A stretch of 35,992 bases of DNA, taken from positions 1-35,992 of the forward strand of contig JAUNIH010000012.1 of NCBI GenBank assembly GCA_030523555.1, given 5' to 3'. The position numbers were made by a program, and so were the translations under genes. The notes under the pieces were generated by a model. It made no database searches, had not been told where the DNA came from, and saw nothing but the letters and a program-made list of their open reading frames with translations. The DNA is from Erysipelotrichaceae bacterium (lineage in GTDB: Bacteria > Bacillota_I > Bacilli_A > Erysipelotrichales > Erysipelotrichaceae). Shown here one piece after another: positions 10,007 to 28,183 of this stretch (its first letter is position 1; each line of letters starts with the position of its first letter).

Positions 10007-12244
10007 CTACCCCTTGTACTCACTGTCATAGATATCGCCGTATCCGGCTCTGATTAAAGTCCAGATATATTCGTAGGCGCTTGTTCCGCTTGTGAAGGCG
10101 TCTTTGTTCTGATAGGCAACATAGGAAATACTTCTGTATAAGGTTCCACCGTATAAAACAATTTCATTATCACCGTTGGTATCGTTTACCGGTCTTAAGA
10201 CAATATAAGGTCTTGTCGCAAAATCAGCGGCACACTGTGGGTTAGTGTAATCTCCGACAAGAGTGTTTGTATAGGTGCTTGTACCACCGGATTCTTTATA
10301 GATGGCGTTAATGTTGTCGGTTCTTGAATACGCCCTTCCTTTGGCGCCCACGCTTGCGGTGTAATTTCCACTGGTATCCTTAATCAGTACCGGTTCTTCG
10401 TTTTCTGTTAAGGAACTTGCCCAGACCATGATAGTTCCATATTCCATAACCTTATATCCGGCATATGAAGAATTTATAAGAGAGTTCTTGGTGCTGGTAG
10501 GTATGGAAGTCATAAACCTGATACCTTTGTTTCCGGTAATTCTGATGGAAACACCGGCGTATTTCAAAAGATTGGTAAATTCACTTACCTTGGTTGCGGT
10601 TAAACTTGTACCATTAAGTTTTATAAGATAGACATCCATTCCGGTAGGATATACCTTATGAAGGTCTGACAGATCGGTAGTGTTATAGGTATAGATTATG
10701 GCGTTTGTGACGTTTTCGTTTTCGGCTGTCACATAACCGTTTTTTGTTACAGTTACGGGCTTACCGTCAAGATAGACGATATCACCCGTTACAACATTAT
10801 CAATGGCGATATCTAAAGATATTTCTTCCCATTGCGCATACAGTGTGTGATCTGCCGCTACTGCCACAACCGTACTGGAACTGACAGTTTCGCCGGTTTC
10901 AAGACCCCATCCCATAAAAACGTATCCGCTTTTTACAGGAACAGGAAGAGTACCATAGATTAAACCTTCACCTACAGTTTTAGTGCTGCTGGCACCTTCA
11001 GGAAGACTTCCGCCATTAGGATCAAAAGAAACTGTATGGGTAATTGAAGGAGTAGCTTCAATGTGAAGTGTTCCGTAAAAATTGGTTGCGCCGACAGTAT
11101 AAGTGGCAGTAAGGTTTATGGCTTTTTCGTTACATACCCAGTTTCGGTTATTAAGGTCATAAGCTACAAGGTTATAGATGACATTTGAACTATATTCATT
11201 GACAATATCTATATCAAAAGAATAATTGCCAGCATCAAGATTTGTCTGTATGGTCTGAGCTTTAGGGTCTGACCAGTTTTTAATGAGCCCGGTCTTAATA
11301 TAATAGTTGTTAGTTAAGGATATACAAGGGTAAGAACCGTCCTGGGTGTGCTGGTTATGAACTGTGCTCATGATTTCATCGGTTAAACCAAAATACAAAT
11401 GTTTTATGTCATATGTTATGCCATTAATAGTGTATGAATCGTATCCATCATCATCCCATGTAGCATCTATCTGATACCATTCGCCATCCATTTTTACACA
11501 GCTCCAGGTATGTCCGTTTCCGATTACGCGGGTATTTTCGATATTGACTCTGTTCAGCAGCATCGCGTAGGCTCTCTGGTATGATTCGCAGGTTCCCTTA
11601 CCTCTGACAAGAATTCCTTCGGCTCCGCAGTAGACAAACTCACCAACAGTTGGTGTATATGCAGAAAACATAATCTTTTTAAGAATAGGGTCATACTGCG
11701 CGTTATCAACCATCCAATCATGATGCCATAACGCTTTCTCGTAATCTGTTGAACAGCTCTGAAGACACTGTGCCACCACATTGTCGGCAATTGTTTCAAT
11801 GGACGGACAATTTGGATCGCTTACCGTTAAAGTAACGCCTATTTTGCTGGTGCTTGTAAAATCGTTTGTATCTATGACATAAAACCACAACTCATAGGTA
11901 CCAGAAGCCATAAAAGTAAACGGATATACAGTGTCTGTAAGGTAACTTGTTCTTGTTAAATCCGTAATAAGTTCCTTGTTTCCGTCTGCGTATCCGTATA
12001 CACACTGCAACATATATTTATAAGCACCTGAACCACCACTACCACTTAAAGTAAAGTTGACAGCTTCATTACATTTGATAGTTGAAGGATCAGGATAAGA
12101 AACAGTAATTGTCAAACCGTTGGCGTTTGTAGCGGATTCACTTGTATCAGCGTATACTTCATTTACAGGCGCAAAAAAGAAACTGCCTGTAAGTGTCAGT
12201 AAAACAAACATGATATATAATATTGTTTTAGCAGCATGTTTCAT
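10007..12244 (-). CDS. Secreted transglutaminase-like protein with InlB-type repeat
   Basis: This 745-residue exported protein has a signal peptide (about 1-33, cleavage near VYA/DTSES). Residues about 45-145 look like an Ig/PKD-type domain. The transglutaminase-like domain (about 150-290) has the full catalytic triad: Cys219 in GKGTCESYQRAYAMLL, His245 in GNGHTWSCVKM and Asp260 in QIDATWDDDG. A Listeria-Bacteroides (InlB B-repeat) module follows at about 405-475, with VSFDPNGGSLPEG and YVFMGWG ending in LYAQW. The last 270 residues I do not recognise. There is no LPXTG anchor or C-terminal membrane segment. It heads a three-gene operon with two lipoproteins, suggesting cell-envelope work. 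The enzyme could act as a protease or as a cross-linker. The start has no Shine-Dalgarno. Confidence 0.88.
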   Translation of the reverse strand: MKHAAKTILYIMFVLLTLTGSFFFAPVNEVYADTSESATNANGLTITVSYPDPSTIKCNEAVNFTLSGSGGSGAYKYMLQCVYGYADGNKELITDLTRTSYLTDTVYPFTFMASGTYELWFYVIDTNDFTSTSKIGVTLTVSDPNCPSIETIADNVVAQCLQSCSTDYEKALWHHDWMVDNAQYDPILKKIMFSAYTPTVGEFVYCGAEGILVRGKGTCESYQRAYAMLLNRVNIENTRVIGNGHTWSCVKMDGEWYQIDATWDDDGYDSYTINGITYDIKHLYFGLTDEIMSTVHNQHTQDGSYPCISLTNNYYIKTGLIKNWSDPKAQTIQTNLDAGNYSFDIDIVNEYSSNVIYNLVAYDLNNRNWVCNEKAINLTATYTVGATNFYGTLHIEATPSITHTVSFDPNGGSLPEGASSTKTVGEGLIYGTLPVPVKSGYVFMGWGLETGETVSSSTVVAVAADHTLYAQWEEISLDIAIDNVVTGDIVYLDGKPVTVTKNGYVTAENENVTNAIIYTYNTTDLSDLHKVYPTGMDVYLIKLNGTSLTATKVSEFTNLLKYAGVSIRITGNKGIRFMTSIPTSTKNSLINSSYAGYKVMEYGTIMVWASSLTENEEPVLIKDTSGNYTASVGAKGRAYSRTDNINAIYKESGGTSTYTNTLVGDYTNPQCAADFATRPYIVLRPVNDTNGDNEIVLYGGTLYRSISYVAYQNKDAFTSGTSAYEYIWTLIRAGYGDIYDSEYKG

Positions 12245-19024: not shown

Positions 19025-22000
19025 ATGAAAAATCATAATTTCAGAAAACTTATATGTCTTATAAGTGCTGTCCTTGTTTTAACAGGGATATTTTTGCCAT
19101 GTACAGATATTAAAGCTGATGAAACAAAGACCGTAAGAGTGGGATGGTATTATCTGGATAACTTCCAGGAAGGTATGTCAGATACTGAAGAAAAGAGCGG
19201 GTACAGCTATGAATATCTTCAGGCAATATCAGCCTATACCGGATGGGAATATGAATATGTCTATGGTGACTGGTCAGAACTGTTCAGACAGCTAACAAGC
19301 GGAACCATTGATATCATGGCAGCTGTCACAAGAACGCCGGAAAGAGAAGCTCTTTTCCTGTTTCCATCAAGAGCCATGGCTTATGAAGACTACTATATCT
19401 TTAAAAGAAACGATGAAACCGAAATAAACGCCAACGATATACACTCGCTTACCGGTAAAAAGATCGGTACGATACGCGATAATCTTATCTCGACCTATTT
19501 TGAAGAATGGCTTTCAAATAGCGGTGTAGATTGTGAAGAGGTACAGTTTGCGACTTTCTCTGACCGTGATATTGCCTTCCAGAACAAGGAAGTAGACTGT
19601 ATTGTCAGTGTAGATAATAATGTTTCGGAAGACCGGGGCTTTACCAAACTCTTTAAAATCGGTTCATGTGATTCGTGTATTGCGGTAAGTACGAAAAGAC
19701 AGGATCTTCTTGATGAACTCAATAAGGCCCAAAGCGCTCTTTTTGAAAGTGATCCTTATTTTATAGAATCATTACAGATCAAATACTATGAAAAGGCACT
19801 GCTGACATCATATCTTTCAGATGATGAAAACAGGTGGGTAATTAATCACGATACATTGACTGTGGGCTGTGTCAAGGATTATCTTCCTTTCTCCGGTGTA
19901 GAGAATAATGAAGTAACAGACGTTATAACTGATATCTTTAATCAGTGGATAAACAATCTGCATCTTAAAAATGATATAGACATCACATATAAGACCTACG
20001 ATAACTATTCGGATATGGTCGTTGCCTTAAGAAATGATGAAGTAGATGCGATCTTCCCGGTAATTGATAATATCTATATTTCCGAAACCGAAGGAATAGC
20101 TCAGACTTCAACGATTATGGATTCAACCATCTATATCATCTATAAGGGCGAATATAATAGTTCCAAAACCGACATCATAGCCGTATCGGAACACAGTGCT
20201 TTCCAGATCACCTATGCGAAGATGTACTATCCTGATTCAACGATCTATTATGCGACCAGTGCCGAAGGCTGTTTACAGGCAGTACAGAACGGTGATGCCG
20301 ACTGTACGATGTTCAACAGCGGACGTGCGGAAAAATACTTCTTACAGGGCAAGTATGATGACCTCAACTCTCAGGCCCTAGGTCAAAGCGCATCCTATTG
20401 CATTGGCGTACATCGCGGCAACACCTCTTTATATTCCTTAATGGAAAAAGGTGTATCACTTATCGATAAATCCGAGATTACCAATATCGCCAGCCGCTAC
20501 ATCTCTACCGGCATGACTTCTTACAGTCTTATCTCTATTTTAAGAAACAATCTTCCGCTGGTGATTGTGCTTTTCCTTCTGATACTCGCTCTGATTGTGG
20601 TCTCAGCATCAACCTATATCAGAAGCGCCAGAAAAGAATTGGAAAATGCCAATATGCAGAACAGACAACTCAATATCATCCAGTCTGTATCAACAATGTT
20701 CCATGCGGTATACTATGGTGATTTTGAACAGAATATAGCCCTGGAAATTTCAAACCTTAAACACATCAGAGAATTCATCAAGAGCGGTCATACACCAAAG
20801 GAAACAATGGATGCCTTATGCGCAAATCTCATTGAACCTGAATACATTGATGATCTTCAGAAACTGGCTGATCAGGAATATCTGTCCAGAGAACTATTAG
20901 GCAAGAATTCCATAAGTGTTGAATATATCGGCAAGACCATGGGCTGGTGCCGTGCCATCGCTATTCCGGTTGAATGGAAAGATGACAGGCTGATCAAGGT
21001 TTTATGGTGTTTTGAAAGCATAAAAGACCAGAAAGAAAAAGAATTCAGGGCTCAGGAAGAAATAAAAGAAGCGCTTCATAAAGCTGAAGACGCCTCCAAG
21101 GCAAAGTCTACCTTCCTTTTCAATATGTCTCATGATATAAGAACACCAATGAATGCGATCTTCGGCTATACCGAACTCATGAAAAAGAACAGACTCGATG
21201 ATACAAAGTTTGAACAGTACTATAAAAACACTGTTGAATCAGAAGAATTCCTGCTGAACCTCATTAATAATGTCTTAGAAACCGCAAGAATTGAAAGCGG
21301 CAATGTCTCATTGAATGAAAAGGTATCGGAAAACAGAATAGATGAAATTGTGCTCAACAGTATGTCCAATGAAATGGATAAGAAGCACATCACCTTATAT
21401 AAGGATATTGATATAAAACACCCTTATATCATGCAGGATGAAACAAAGATTGAACAGATTCTTTTGAATATCGTAAGTAATGCGGTCAAATATACACCTG
21501 ATGGCGGAAGTATCTACTATACAGTAAAAGAAGAAGAAACAGATAAAGAAGATATCATCAATATCCGCACAGTTATCAGAGATACCGGTATCGGTATGTC
21601 CGAAGAATTCTTACCGCATATCTTTGAAAAGTTTGCGAGAGAAAAATCTACAACCGACAATAAGATTCCAGGTACAGGACTTGGCCTGGGTATTGTCAAA
21701 CAGCTTGTAGAACTGATGAATGGAACCATAGATATTGAAAGTAAACTCGACGTTGGTACTAAGGTAACGATTGTTATTCCGCATAAGATTGCGGAGGCTC
21801 CAATAGAAAAGAAAAACGAAGAAGCAGAATCATATGATATCAGCGGAAAGAGAATTCTTCTTGCGGAAGATAATGAGCTCAATGCCGAAATTGCGATGGA
21901 ACTCTTAAAGGAAACAGGAGCGGAAATTGAACTCGCGGAAGATGGTCAGATCTGTGTAGAAATGTTAAAGGGTCATGAACCAGATTACTATGATGTCATA

Positions 22001-22222
22001 TTAATGGATGTGCAGATGCCTAATATGGATGGTTTGGAGGCTACAAGAAAGATCAGAGAACTTGAAGATGAAAGATCAAAGATCTCGATTATTGCGATGA
22101 CGGCAAACGCTTTTGACGAAGACAAGAAGAGATGTCTAGAAGCAGGAATGGATGACTTTGTCTCTAAACCTATTGAAGTAGATGCCTTGCTCAAGGTTCT
22201 CAATAATATCATTAATAAATAA
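19025..22222 (+). CDS. Hybrid sensor histidine kinase with two periplasmic-binding-protein domains
   Basis: This 1065-residue sensor is organised like BvgS/EvgS. It has a signal peptide (about 1-33), then two tandem extracytoplasmic SBP_bac_3 domains (about 35-255 and 275-490; the first contains GTIDIMAAVTRTPEREALF). One membrane segment follows at about 505-528, then a linker with a helical stretch. The HisKA domain has His703 in FNMSHDIRTPMNAI. The HATPase domain shows NIVSNAVKYTPDGG, RDTGIGM and GTGLGLGIVKQL. The C-terminal receiver has Asp995 in VILMDVQMPNMDG. No Hpt domain is present, so phosphate must leave through a separate Hpt such as that at 12367. The double binding-protein sensor suggests recognition of an amino acid or similar small solute. 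The start lacks an obvious Shine-Dalgarno. Confidence 0.93.
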   Translation: MKNHNFRKLICLISAVLVLTGIFLPCTDIKADETKTVRVGWYYLDNFQEGMSDTEEKSGYSYEYLQAISAYTGWEYEYVYGDWSELFRQLTSGTIDIMAAVTRTPEREALFLFPSRAMAYEDYYIFKRNDETEINANDIHSLTGKKIGTIRDNLISTYFEEWLSNSGVDCEEVQFATFSDRDIAFQNKEVDCIVSVDNNVSEDRGFTKLFKIGSCDSCIAVSTKRQDLLDELNKAQSALFESDPYFIESLQIKYYEKALLTSYLSDDENRWVINHDTLTVGCVKDYLPFSGVENNEVTDVITDIFNQWINNLHLKNDIDITYKTYDNYSDMVVALRNDEVDAIFPVIDNIYISETEGIAQTSTIMDSTIYIIYKGEYNSSKTDIIAVSEHSAFQITYAKMYYPDSTIYYATSAEGCLQAVQNGDADCTMFNSGRAEKYFLQGKYDDLNSQALGQSASYCIGVHRGNTSLYSLMEKGVSLIDKSEITNIASRYISTGMTSYSLISILRNNLPLVIVLFLLILALIVVSASTYIRSARKELENANMQNRQLNIIQSVSTMFHAVYYGDFEQNIALEISNLKHIREFIKSGHTPKETMDALCANLIEPEYIDDLQKLADQEYLSRELLGKNSISVEYIGKTMGWCRAIAIPVEWKDDRLIKVLWCFESIKDQKEKEFRAQEEIKEALHKAEDASKAKSTFLFNMSHDIRTPMNAIFGYTELMKKNRLDDTKFEQYYKNTVESEEFLLNLINNVLETARIESGNVSLNEKVSENRIDEIVLNSMSNEMDKKHITLYKDIDIKHPYIMQDETKIEQILLNIVSNAVKYTPDGGSIYYTVKEEETDKEDIINIRTVIRDTGIGMSEEFLPHIFEKFAREKSTTDNKIPGTGLGLGIVKQLVELMNGTIDIESKLDVGTKVTIVIPHKIAEAPIEKKNEEAESYDISGKRILLAEDNELNAEIAMELLKETGAEIELAEDGQICVEMLKGHEPDYYDVILMDVQMPNMDGLEATRKIRELEDERSKISIIAMTANAFDEDKKRCLEAGMDDFVSKPIEVDALLKVLNNIINK

Positions 22223-22339: not shown

Positions 22340-22627
22340 CTACATATTCTGTTTAGGAATAAACTCTATTTTAAGAGTCATTCCCATACCGTCAGCCAAC
22401 CTCTGAAGTAATTTGATTGTTGGGTTTCTTGTGCCGTTTTCAAGCTTGCTGATGTCAGCCTGATTGATTCCTGTACGTTCTGACAGTTCCTTCTGTGTAA
22501 TATTCTGCGAGGTTCTTGCATCAATAATAGTCCTGATAACATTGAGCTCCGGCTGAATTGCTTCATATTCTTTTGCAAACGATGGATTCTGCATCTGTTT
22601 CTCTTTATACTGTTTTAATGTTTTCAC
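22340..22627 (-). CDS. HigA-type XRE-family antitoxin
   Basis: This 95-residue DNA-binding protein has a C-terminal Xre helix-turn-helix: SQNITQKELSERTGINQADI followed by SKLENGTRNPTIKLLQRLADGMG. The N-terminal 30 residues (KEKQMQNPSFAKEYEAIQPEL) match the HigA-like antitoxins that pair with Gp49/HigB toxins. The start is GTG, overlapping the toxin stop as GTGA, with GGAAAG just upstream, so the two are translationally coupled in toxin-first order, as in higBA. It should neutralise the toxin and repress the operon, probably through the 20-bp palindrome at 23002-23021. Confidence 0.88.
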   Translation of the reverse strand: MKTLKQYKEKQMQNPSFAKEYEAIQPELNVIRTIIDARTSQNITQKELSERTGINQADISKLENGTRNPTIKLLQRLADGMGMTLKIEFIPKQNM

Positions 22628-23097
22628 AATCTTTCCATCCTTTCTTTAAAGTCTGCTCTGCGCTTCTTTGCAAGTCTGATTTCTTTTGATGGTGTCTTTT
22701 GGGTCTTTTTTACAAAACCATTTGTAAGTACTATTTCCCCTTTGTAGTAAAAGAAATACAGTATTCTTGTAATGTTGCTTCCAACCTTGCAGCGCAATTC
22801 AAATATTCCATCATCAATCGCTTTACTGTATGGTTCTCTGAGCTGATTGCCTTTCTCTTCAAGAAGATCCAGCAGACCAACTGTTTTGGCTCGCATTTTA
22901 TCATCAAGAGAATCTAAAAATTCTTCTACTGGACAATCGCCATTTTCTTTTTCATAAAATACAACTTCAAATGCAGTCGTACATTCTCTTGCGTTATTAT
23001 TATATGGTATATATACCATATTGTCAATTTTAAAGGACATTTCCGGTTTGTTGTTTTCAGAATATAAATCATTATCTGTTGTGAATACTTTCTTCAT
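22624..23097 (-). CDS. HigB/RelE-superfamily toxin of Gp49 type, start uncertain
   Basis: The recognisable toxin runs from FEVVFYEKENGDCPVEEFLD to the C-terminus and includes LREPYSKAIDDGIFELRC, TRILYFFYYKGEIVLTNGF and VKKTQKTPSKEI. These are hallmarks of Gp49/HigB mRNA-cleaving toxins, which act on translated mRNA at the ribosome. The family normally begins a few residues before FEVVFYE. Here the open frame extends about 40 residues further to 23097, with in-frame ATGs only at residues 1, 20 and 27. All three lie upstream of, or within, a consensus promoter embedded in the frame, and none has a good ribosome site. An ATG at 22984 sits where a short start would be expected but is out of frame. 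Either the long form is real or the start has been damaged. Confidence 0.8.
   Translation of the reverse strand: MKKVFTTDNDLYSENNKPEMSFKIDNMVYIPYNNNARECTTAFEVVFYEKENGDCPVEEFLDSLDDKMRAKTVGLLDLLEEKGNQLREPYSKAIDDGIFELRCKVGSNITRILYFFYYKGEIVLTNGFVKKTQKTPSKEIRLAKKRRADFKERMERL
22999..23027 (-). promoter_or_regulatory. Consensus promoter with 20-bp palindromic operator inside the toxin frame
   Basis: On the minus strand TTGACA (23027-23022) and TATAAT (23004-22999) are both perfect and 17 nt apart. The spacer is filled by the palindrome ATATGGTATATATACCATAT (23002-23021). This is what an autoregulated toxin-antitoxin operator looks like. Transcription would begin near 22992, after all in-frame toxin ATGs. 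Confidence 0.75.
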
Positions 23098-24606: not shown

Positions 24607-25131
24607 ATGAATAATATGAATCTGAAAGAACTGAAAGAATATCTTAAACTTGAACCCTTAAATAAAGAAGGAGGTCTTATAGGTTATCCTTATGTATCGG
24701 ATGAAATCATTAAAGAAGGAATACTGGAAGATAGAGATGGTGATAGACCATTATGCGGGACTATCTATTATGTGCTTACGCCAAACTCATTTTCGAGGAT
24801 GCATAAACTGGTGAGTGATGAGATATGGTATTACCATGATGGACCAGCTTTAAAGATGCTGCTGATAGATGAAGAAGGAAACAGCGAAATAAAGTATCTG
24901 GGTAATAATCTTAAAAAAGGTGAAACACCACAGATTACCGTAAAAAGAAATACATGGCAGGGAGCATTGATGAATGAGGATGGCGAATATACGCTTGTCT
25001 CTACATCAATGGCACCAAAATACTGTGACAGTGATTATACTGACGGATATTATGATGATCTTAAGAATTATGTTAAGGAAGAAGAAAAAGAGCTGTTAAA
25101 AAGACTGACGGGTGAGCCGGTATATGAGTAA
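24607..25131 (+). CDS. Cupin_5 (DUF985) family protein
   Basis: This 174-residue protein matches the Cupin_5/DUF985 family. It has the cupin strand TIYYVLTPNSFSRMHKLVSDEIWYYHDG with a His and acidic residue suited to metal or ligand binding, then KRNTWQGA, and a second motif YTLVSTSMAPKYCDSDYT typical of the family's end. Members are small beta-barrel proteins; a few are linked to sugar or nucleotide-sugar binding, but function is mostly unknown. It is divergent from marR-degV across 75 bp that contain the MarR operator, so it may belong to the same regulon. Confidence 0.85.
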   Translation: MNNMNLKELKEYLKLEPLNKEGGLIGYPYVSDEIIKEGILEDRDGDRPLCGTIYYVLTPNSFSRMHKLVSDEIWYYHDGPALKMLLIDEEGNSEIKYLGNNLKKGETPQITVKRNTWQGALMNEDGEYTLVSTSMAPKYCDSDYTDGYYDDLKNYVKEEEKELLKRLTGEPVYE

Positions 25132-25175: not shown

Positions 25176-25204
25176 TTGACATTTATTTTCTAAGTTGATA
25201 ATAT
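25176..25204 (+). promoter_or_regulatory. Promoter of the large non-coding RNA
   Basis: A perfect TTGACA (25176-25181) and TAATAT (25199-25204) are 17 nt apart. Transcription is expected near 25210, where the first hairpin of the RNA begins. It is one of the best promoters in the window and no start codon with a ribosome site follows it. Confidence 0.8.
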
Positions 25205-25209
25205 TAACA

Positions 25210-26421
25210 AGCACCAAGGAAACAAAGTGCTGCAGGATAGAGTCGTAAGGCTCTAAAATGTAAAAAGTGCGGTGCAGTCTCGAGTAATCAGGGCTGTCAA
25301 AGCCGGCGGAGAAATCCGACGGAAAAAGCACAGCGAGTAAGGATGCGAAAGTATCACGAAAGCATTGGTCATCAGCGGTTATTAGAGAAATCGAAGTGGC
25401 CGGGAAAGCTGAAGAACCTGAAAGGGTTTGAAGGTGAAGTGATGAGTTGAATGGGATGAAAGGCCTGTTCAATAAGGTGCCAGTAAGCCGGAAGAAATGA
25501 AGGTTAGGTATGACAACGCAGAGATCTTGTGTTTCTGTGGGGCCAGGGGCACAACGCAAAGGAAACGATGCGTTAAGGAAAGCGCGAGCAGAGAGATCTG
25601 GAAAGGTGAGCTGGTGAAAGCCGGCAAACAAAAAGCGCGAAGCTGTAGTCGAAAGATGAAGGCTGACAACCGGGGGAACCTAGAGAAAACTAAGCGGAAA
25701 CCGGTTGGACTTTAATCCGTAAGGGTTGGGGTCAAATGCGAAGCTCGTAAGAGTGAAAGCCGAAGGTGGACGAAAGAAGACCTGAGGAAACAGCAGAGTG
25801 AGTAGGATAGTGAAAACTGTCGGAAAGCGGAAAATCGTCACACGACATGTTCAGTGATGGATGTTGAGTGAAAAGTCTGAATGGCCTTTTAAGGAAGTCA
25901 GGAAAGAGGCGAGGCCGATGGAAGTGTAGACCGAAGTCGGAGAGGGTGTCTAGCAGTGAAGAGGGTGACCTCGGTGACTGGATAAAGTAACGCATGACTC
26001 GAAAGAGTTGTGTGGGACAAAGGATACGAAGCAGATGGTCATTGCAGTGAGTCTGTTTCAAGGGAATTGCAGTCGAAAGATGCATAGGCTCAAGGCAAGT
26101 TCCTGTGAATGCGGAAGTAATGAAACATTCACTGAGGTTCAGGTTGCCGGTAACGGGAGTCTGAAAGAAAGGGGCGGCTGGTGTTAAGAACCAGTAAGCG
26201 CGAACTTGGAAATCTGGTTAAACACAGAGGGATAAGGGAAGCCTGTTATGCAGGAAAAAGCGGCAGCGGTGGATTTATTCACAGCTGTGAAAGGTAGTGC
26301 TAAAAACTGAAAAACTGAACCTGGAAACAGGGGAAACTGAAAGAATATATTCTTTAATGCCTTGAGGCTTAAAGACGATATGCACGAAATTATAAGGCAT
26401 CACGTGAGTGGTGCCTTTTTT
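25210..26421 (+). ncRNA. Very large structured non-coding RNA, about 1.2 kb, class not identified
   Basis: The stretch 25132-26506 has no credible protein gene: frames are short, have no ribosome sites and resemble no family. It changes visibly in composition, being rich in G and A on the plus strand, and runs from a consensus promoter to a strong terminator. Direct structural signs are many GNRA-capped hairpins, with loops at 25245 (GUAA, 7-bp stem), 25311, 25347, 25420, 25719, 25747, 26001 (GAAA, 10-bp stem 25991-26014) and 26324. There are also longer stems such as 25667-25673 with 25701-25707 (CAACCGG/CCGGUUG), 25553-25558 with 25569-25574, and 26178-26182 with 26090-series partner 26190-26194. 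A 5' hairpin (AGCAC/GUGCU) starts at the predicted transcription start. Size and style recall OLE, GOLLD and ROOL, but I cannot place it in any. No group II intron domain V, RNase P or tmRNA signature is seen. Confidence 0.82.
26394..26421 (+). terminator. Terminator of the large RNA
   Basis: AAGGCAUCAC pairs with GUGGUGCCUU (10 bp, one U-G) around a GUGA loop and is followed by six T. The 5' arm can alternatively pair with AUGCCUU at 26357-26363. Confidence 0.88.
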
Positions 26422-26506
26422 ATGTTTACTTTCAGAAAAGTATTGCAGGTAATTGTATACTAGTGTAAAGAGCGGTAAAATTATCGTAAATACGAGGTAA
26501 ATCAAA

Positions 26507-28183
26507 ATGAGTAGAGCTGACATTGTTTCTGCCCTCTTACAGCTGATTGCCGGAGTTGGTATTTTCATGATTGCCTGTACAAGAGTAAGTTCCAATCTTG
26601 AAGCCATCTCCAGTAATAAACTGAAAGAACTTCTGACTAAAATTTCTGACAATACCTTACTGGGTATACTGACAGGTGCCATTACGACAGCCATCATTCA
26701 GTCTTCGAGTGCGACGACGGTCATGGCCATCGGTTTTGTCGATGCGGGTATCATGTCCCTTAATCAGGCGGCAAATATCATCTATGGTGGAGAAATCGGT
26801 ACGACTATTACCGGACAGATTGTATCTTTAGGTATGTTTGGTACAGGTACATCGGTTTCCATGAATGTAATATTTGGTGCTATGACCGGTATCGGTGTCT
26901 TTGTGGAAATGGCTTTAAGTGATGATAAGAAGAAAACCATCTGCAAGGTTGTATCGGGACTGGGGATGCTGTTTGTAGGTTTAAATCTGATGTCATCTTC
27001 CATGAAGTCCTTTGCCCAGCTTGAAGAAATCAGAATGATGCTGGCGGGTATAGATAATTTCCTGATACTAACACTTGCCGGTGCCGTACTTACAGCGATT
27101 ATCCAGTCTTCTTCAGCCATGACATCGATTGCGATTACAATGGTCGTTTCAGGACTGATTACTATTGATCAGGGTATCTATATTACTTTAGGTGCCAATA
27201 TCGGTACCTGTTTTACCGGTTTCCTGGCGGGTTCTACAGGTGGCGTCAATGCACGAAGAACCTCTATGATACAGACGATCTTTAATATCGCGGGAGTTAT
27301 TCTGGCACTGATTATCAATGAAGTTCTGATTATGGTAACTCATGGCAGTGTATCTTTTGGTACCTTAATGGCATCAATGTTCCCGGGTATACCGCAGACA
27401 CAGCTGGCTATGTTCCATACGATTTTCAACATCCTTTCGGTAGTTCTGGTTATACCGGTTGCGCCATGGCTTATTGAACTTTCCAAGAAGATTGTTCCGG
27501 ATGAAATCGACACTCCTGTAGAAAGTGATGAACCGCATATGTACTATATCAACAGCTATATGCTGAAGACTCCGGTTATTGCCGTTAAACAGCTCAAGAA
27601 CGAAATTCTCAATATGGCAGAACAGGCCATGAACAACTTCAATATGGCAATAGATGGTTTTGCCTCAACAGAATTTGTAGACAAGAATGAATTTGATAAA
27701 GTTGAAGAACAGCTTGACTATGTCAACAACAACCTTCCACAGTTTATTACCGCCTTATCTTCAACCAAGATAAGTCCGGAAGACCGTGCTTTCCTTTCTG
27801 CCGCCTACCATGTCATTATCGATATTGAAAGAATAGGTGATTACGCAGTCAATCTTACAGAATATATTGATACATTAAGAAATGACAACAGGTCCTTCAG
27901 TGAAGAAGCCAACGAAGAAATACAGATTCTTAAAGGAAAAATCAATGACCTATATGCCTCTATCATTGAAATATACCGCCTTGGCAACGTTGACAACATC
28001 AAAGAAGCCCAGGATATAGAAGATGGTATTGATGAATATACGAAACTGATGGAAGAAAATCATATCCACAGAATGAGTGAAAACATATGTACACCTAGAA
28101 CGGGAGCTATCTTCCTTTCGATGATAACGGAACTTGAAAGAGTAGCTGACCACCTGATGAATATCGCTCAGTATGGTATCTGA
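26507..28183 (+). CDS. Na+/phosphate cotransporter with C-terminal PhoU-like domain
   Basis: This 558-residue membrane protein is of the NptA/YjbB type. The N-terminal membrane part (about 1-325) contains the two inverted Na/Pi-cotransport repeats, each with the diagnostic QSSSA motif: AIIQSSSATTVMAIGFVDAG and AIIQSSSAMTSIAITMVVSG. Residues about 345-558 form a helical PhoU-like domain (ending in ELERVADHLMNIAQYGI), a fusion common in bacterial members. It imports inorganic phosphate or balances its level using the sodium gradient. GAGG lies about 10 nt before the ATG. The gene follows the large RNA's terminator by 85 nt, so it either has its own weak promoter (TATACT near 26456) or depends on read-through from the RNA. 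Confidence 0.93.
   Translation: MSRADIVSALLQLIAGVGIFMIACTRVSSNLEAISSNKLKELLTKISDNTLLGILTGAITTAIIQSSSATTVMAIGFVDAGIMSLNQAANIIYGGEIGTTITGQIVSLGMFGTGTSVSMNVIFGAMTGIGVFVEMALSDDKKKTICKVVSGLGMLFVGLNLMSSSMKSFAQLEEIRMMLAGIDNFLILTLAGAVLTAIIQSSSAMTSIAITMVVSGLITIDQGIYITLGANIGTCFTGFLAGSTGGVNARRTSMIQTIFNIAGVILALIINEVLIMVTHGSVSFGTLMASMFPGIPQTQLAMFHTIFNILSVVLVIPVAPWLIELSKKIVPDEIDTPVESDEPHMYYINSYMLKTPVIAVKQLKNEILNMAEQAMNNFNMAIDGFASTEFVDKNEFDKVEEQLDYVNNNLPQFITALSSTKISPEDRAFLSAAYHVIIDIERIGDYAVNLTEYIDTLRNDNRSFSEEANEEIQILKGKINDLYASIIEIYRLGNVDNIKEAQDIEDGIDEYTKLMEENHIHRMSENICTPRTGAIFLSMITELERVADHLMNIAQYGI

Follow-up and report, generated by a model that had tools for sequence, protein, structure and literature searches.

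A candidate giant, GNRA-rich structured noncoding RNA gene in an Erysipelotrichaceae genome

Gene neighbourhood and boundaries of the element

The window analysed here, that is, the whole 35,992-nt stretch of an Erysipelotrichaceae contig, contains a candidate gene for a structured noncoding RNA of unusual size, whose coordinates and internal features are collected in Table 1. It lies between a cupin (DUF985) gene, which ends at 25131, and, on its 3' side, a Na/Pi cotransporter gene at 26507-28183. The neighbouring genes in the window are housekeeping, transporter and regulatory genes, and the element is single-copy in its own genome, a metagenome-type assembly of 95 contigs.

Several other genes of the window have recognizable architectures. 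A 745-aa protein with a transglutaminase-like core and a Listeria-Bacteroides repeat domain (10007-12244, minus strand) is probably a surface protein, and a 1065-aa hybrid sensor kinase (19025-22222, plus strand) combines an extracellular solute-binding domain with HisKA, HATPase and receiver domains. In addition, a gene pair encoding HTH (HTH_3) and Gp49-like (DUF891) proteins (22340-23097, minus strand) looks like a toxin-antitoxin system of the HigBA/RelE type.

The candidate RNA gene is framed by a putative promoter and an intrinsic terminator. An earlier description made from the nucleotide letters (hereafter the sequence-only reading) had reported a perfect -35 box paired with a near-consensus -10 box. 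The first part holds, with TTGACA at 25176-25181, whereas the -10 hexamer TAATAT, which ends at 25204, agrees with the consensus at only 4/6 positions, so that the wording used for it was generous. The same reading had let the element begin at 25176, which is the start of the -35 box; judging from the promoter, the RNA itself is expected from about 25210. At the other end, the 10-bp terminator it had listed is present, its stem spanning 26394-26417 and being followed by a T run.

Coding capacity appears to be negligible, as had been proposed. The longest plus-strand frame inside the RNA encodes 72 aa, and two longer frames on the reverse strand (187 and 117 aa) were rejected as genes because neither matched a Pfam family; these long reverse frames are best explained by the scarcity of pyrimidines in the strand. 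The distinct composition noted earlier is equally evident: the RNA strand is 65.5% purine, and G+C ranges from 0.46 to 0.51 within the RNA compared with about 0.31-0.44 in the flanks.

Table 1. Coordinates of the candidate RNA gene and of features predicted within and around it (positions in the window)
Feature	Position	Strand	Basis or score
Putative promoter: TTGACA, 17-nt spacer, TAATAT, TG before the -10	25176-25204	+	consensus match only
Candidate giant structured noncoding RNA gene, about 1.21 kb	25210-26421	+	5' end taken from the promoter
7-bp hairpin, GUAA loop	25238-25255	+	pair probability 0.99
Likely module copy M1: AAAAA-GUGC ... CAAAG ... GAAA hairpin ... AAAAA-GCAC	25262-25334	+	20.2 bits, E 0.0012 (M2 model); descriptor
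Plausible module copy M4: UCAUCA/UGAUGA closing stem, GGAAAG linker, GAAA hairpin	25369-25445	+	descriptor
Likely module copy M2: GCGC/GCGC closing stem, GAGA hairpin, GAAAG linker	25577-25643	+	seed of models R1-R3
11-bp hairpin, GUAA loop	25708-25733	+	pair probability 1.0
Likely module copy M3: UGC/GCA closing stem, GUAA hairpin, GAAAG linker, GA/GA internal loop	25731-25799	+	12.7 bits (M2 model)
10-bp hairpin, GAAA loop	25991-26014	+	pair probability 1.0
Possible module copy M6: AAGCGCGAA ... GGGAAG ... AAAAAGCG	26193-26267	+	11.3 bits (M2 model), near background
Possible antiterminator AUGCCUU	26357-26363	+	exact 7-bp complement of the terminator 5' arm (pairing region 26357-26400)
Intrinsic terminator: 10-bp stem, GUGA loop, T run	26394-26424	+	sequence

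Predicted fold, unpaired bases and an apparently recurring junction module

The RNA was folded with pairs allowed up to 250 nt, and 100 dinucleotide shuffles served as the control. The minimum free energy of -361.5 kcal/mol was far below that of the shuffles (-298.1, sd 9.0; z = -7.0, n=100). The folded model contains 36 hairpin loops, of which 20 are GNRA, whereas the folded shuffles carry a mean of 0.92 and a maximum of 4 such loops (n=100). A count that is free of any energy model returned 15 GNRA tetraloops on stems of at least 4 bp (shuffles: mean 1.59, maximum 7; n=1000) and, applied in the same way to the reverse complement of the RNA, none. The earlier figure of at least eight GNRA hairpins was therefore an underestimate. 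Furthermore, in windows of 300 nt on the plus strand, z stays below -2.4 across the whole RNA and is near zero in the downstream gene. Together with the promoter-terminator frame, the z of -7.0 and the GNRA excess bear out the earlier proposal of a sizeable structured noncoding RNA gene rich in GNRA loops, and we are highly confident that 25210-26421 is a structured noncoding RNA.

The density of GNRA hairpins (stems of at least 4 bp) peaks at 10 per 600 nt within the RNA. The maximum in a genome of the same genus (G105, 1.47 Mb) is 6 per 600 nt, and the top-density sites that were checked in that genome all fall within open reading frames. A scan of 1.68 Mb of other loci likewise peaked at 6 per 600 nt, a value reached at a ROOL locus (L123) and a group II intron locus (L114).

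Because these ROOL and group II intron loci topped the 1.68-Mb scan, the number of GNRA hairpins per 600 nt may be a candidate for a cheap detector of ornate RNAs.

The bases left single-stranded by the model have a strongly biased composition. Those predicted to be unpaired (pairing probability <0.4) are 57% A, 31% G, 9% U and 2% C, and in the MEA structure unpaired C amounts to 4.0% compared with 7.2% in the shuffles (z -3.6). In the single-sequence fold, no pseudoknot was found, and the stretches predicted to be unpaired offered no 5-bp loop-loop complement that included 3 G-C pairs. Since the unpaired bases are nearly free of C, the model would leave no room for kissing loops, and the RNA seems, on its predicted fold, to hold the raw material for A-minor contacts and not for kissing loops. 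With loop-loop complements absent, any multimerisation, which the sequence-only reading had considered possible, would be expected to proceed mainly via A-minor or GNRA docking.

Within the predicted fold, a three-way-junction module of about 65 nt appears to recur, with three good copies (M1, M2 and M3) and two or three weaker ones. The 5' half of the shared plan consists of a closing stem, a short purine joint, a hairpin and a (G)AAAG joint; the 3' half consists of a second GNRA hairpin, in many cases interrupted by a GA-rich internal loop, an AAAAA-type joint and the other side of the closing stem. The sequence of the closing stem varies between modules (GCGC/GCGC, GUGC/GCAC, UGC/GCA and UCAUCA/UGAUGA). 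In M2, a GAAA hairpin with a GA/AA internal loop, then AAAAA, is also present. Pair counts across the modules come from an alignment that was fitted to structure and are no substitute for covariation among homologues.

A model of this single 67-nt module (M2) was run over both strands of the whole window. Its top four non-self matches in these 72 kb of strand all fall in the RNA and on the plus strand, the fourth being at 25958-26032 (10.7 bits). The covariance-model match of M4 is weak, spanning 25386-25447 with 8.4 bits for R2 and 13.2 for R3. By means of a module descriptor, 4 units were found in the RNA compared with 1.2 in the shuffles, at least 4 being reached in 5 of 300 shuffles, a statistic that is optimistic because the descriptor was written after the units had been seen. 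With the M2 model, moreover, RNase P RNA reaches 17.6 bits, not far below the 20.2 bits of the strongest internal copy; part of the module score is therefore generic to GNRA-rich RNA, and the claim of a repeat is one of moderate strength. Exact short repeats within the RNA are marginally in excess (rep8 49/1000). A loose version of the module pattern turns up in most genomes and carries no information outside the RNA.

Searches for known classes and homologues

The window was searched against Rfam 15, the models for GOLLD, ROOL, OLE and group II introns included. No match was obtained at gathering, and the RNA gave only chance matches at E <= 10 under lax filters. The positive controls were detected, namely ROOL from Ligilactobacillus salivarius (L123, 130.4 bits), RNase P (295 bits) and group II introns, which are frequent in genomes of the family and whose loci served as controls. 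Among the individual models, ROOL (RF03087), OLE, the group II intron catalytic domain and domains D1-D4, and RNase P had no match in the window, and the group II intron model RF01998 had none in the element's own genome. Annotation of an OLE-associated protein was absent from the ten plus ten window proteins tested. The Rfam check that the sequence-only reading had called for thus returned no known class; its suggestion that the RNA might be a long, diverged representative of GOLLD, ROOL or OLE is unsupported at E <= 10 in a search that did recover the ROOL control. Altogether, the RNA very probably lies outside every described Rfam class.

Searches for homologues covered several taxonomic depths. 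The RNA had no real homologue by blastn in 273 genomes of the family, and DNA searches found none in 36 genomes of the genus (E up to 10), in 395 of the class, in 392 of the phylum, or in plasmid and phage records. The two 35-nt blastn matches within the family fall in antitoxin-type coding sequence and were discarded as homologues. Nor was a homologue retrieved from the 273 family genomes with covariance models built on a 159-nt piece and on the junction module. The family matches of model R1 were rejected as RNase P RNA (L094 and L097, the former confirmed by Rfam) or, where read, as coding sequence (L096); RNase P RNA was its best decoy, at 27.4 bits. R1 had no match to ROOL, and model R3, run over the family, matched only the RNA itself. 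Pattern scans of viral and GTDB contigs with the back-translated open frames of the RNA, which reach close copies only, gave no homologue. Viral pattern matches were set aside as relatives for want of a GNRA cluster. Within the family, class, genus and phylum samples, the nucleotide-similarity search proposed earlier thus yielded no homologue. The lineage is isolated in the searched collections, and the absence of homologues is therefore weaker evidence of uniqueness than it appears.

Interpretation and relation to known large RNAs

The explanation we favour, at about even confidence, is a free-standing, untranslated, self-folding architectural RNA that is held by GNRA/A-minor contacts and stands outside the described families. 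Such an RNA would adopt a compact, self-folded shape, with many of its GNRA loops docking into helices through A-minor contacts; the repeated three-way-junction module would provide the building block, and the adenosine-rich joints the docking surface. More tentatively, it might serve as a scaffold, with or without protein partners, and not as a coding or simple antisense RNA, and by analogy with GOLLD, ROOL and OLE it could conceivably self-assemble; no protein partner or conserved neighbour of the RNA was identified. Because no known RNA family matched, it may be a very large folded RNA of a new class, known from one sequence. The more specific proposal of a new giant bacterial RNA class, built from three-way-junction modules with about 20 GNRA/A-minor docks, without kissing loops and possibly forming an RNA-only assembly, is put forward tentatively, at somewhat less than even confidence.

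The main rival reading regards the RNA as a giant 5' leader of the downstream Na/Pi gene, in which the binding of a ligand or protein would choose between terminator and antiterminator. A giant switchable leader is possible because the Na/Pi open reading frame lies on the same strand, with its start 83 nt past the terminator, because no consensus plus-strand promoter was found between the terminator and that gene, and because a segment complementary to the terminator arm lies nearby (Table 1); the chance of such a complement within 60 nt is 0.005 with Watson-Crick pairs only and 0.038 with GU pairs. However, forcing the antiterminator form is predicted to cost about 15 kcal/mol in stability, and the nascent strand, as modelled, would also prefer a competing hairpin. 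Relatives of the Na/Pi gene in the genus, about 46-53% identical at best, have short upstream gaps without such an RNA, as would be expected if the RNA had an independent gene; the GTDB pattern scan yielded no close relative of the Na/Pi protein. We know of no leader of comparable size with such structure, and we consider a leader role unlikely.

That the RNA is instead catalytic, or the relic of a catalytic RNA, for example a new large ribozyme or what is left of a group II intron, is decidedly improbable. Large ribozymes typically show GNRA docking and purine-rich joints, and the RNase P decoy of R1 and the frequency of group II introns in the family point the same way, yet the corresponding models are without a match, in the own genome too for group II domains, and the element has a promoter and terminator instead of exon junctions and no intron-encoded protein. 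Extreme divergence from GOLLD, ROOL or OLE would agree with the similar size class and ornate style and with the ROOL locus topping the GNRA-density scan. It is nevertheless highly improbable in view of the failure to match at E <= 10 and of R1 to find ROOL, a density of 3.7 GNRA hairpins per kb in ROOL against 12.4 in the RNA, and a window free of tRNAs. Finally, one copy in one 95-contig genome, with a homologue found nowhere searched, could point to a non-functional, odd purine-rich sequence or an assembly artefact; the structure statistics, the strand asymmetry and the promoter-terminator frame speak against this, and we give it very little credence.

Compared with known systems, the architectural RNA favoured here shares features with each of the large classes. 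GOLLD is likewise giant, multi-hairpin and noncoding, and many of its members exceed 800 nt, but it uses kissing loops (PMC12286853), for which the single-sequence fold of the RNA offers no loop-loop complement. GOLLD and ROOL often occur near tRNA islands of phages and prophages (PMC12286853); the 36-kb window contains no tRNA, and no phage genes were seen around the RNA within it. ROOL (RF03087), also large, ornate and from Bacillota, measures about 540-660 nt compared with 1.2 kb and forms a nanocage by means of kissing loops and pseudoknots. OLE, a large structured Bacillota RNA that has a complex fold of its own, differs from the RNA in its length of about 600 nt and its unmatched covariance model. 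GNRA loops and adenosine-rich joints also occur in group II introns and RNase P RNA, where they serve tertiary docking; group II introns, however, are bounded by splice sites, in contrast to the promoter-terminator frame seen here.

Few bacterial RNA classes are equally large and ornate. GOLLD, ROOL and OLE assemble via kissing loops together with A-minor contacts, and three large ornate classes have recently been shown to be RNA-only assemblies (PMC12286853). Another class, of different build and dominated by GNRA docking and repeated junction modules, would test whether RNA-only architecture has arisen repeatedly, and whether different types of contact can underlie it.
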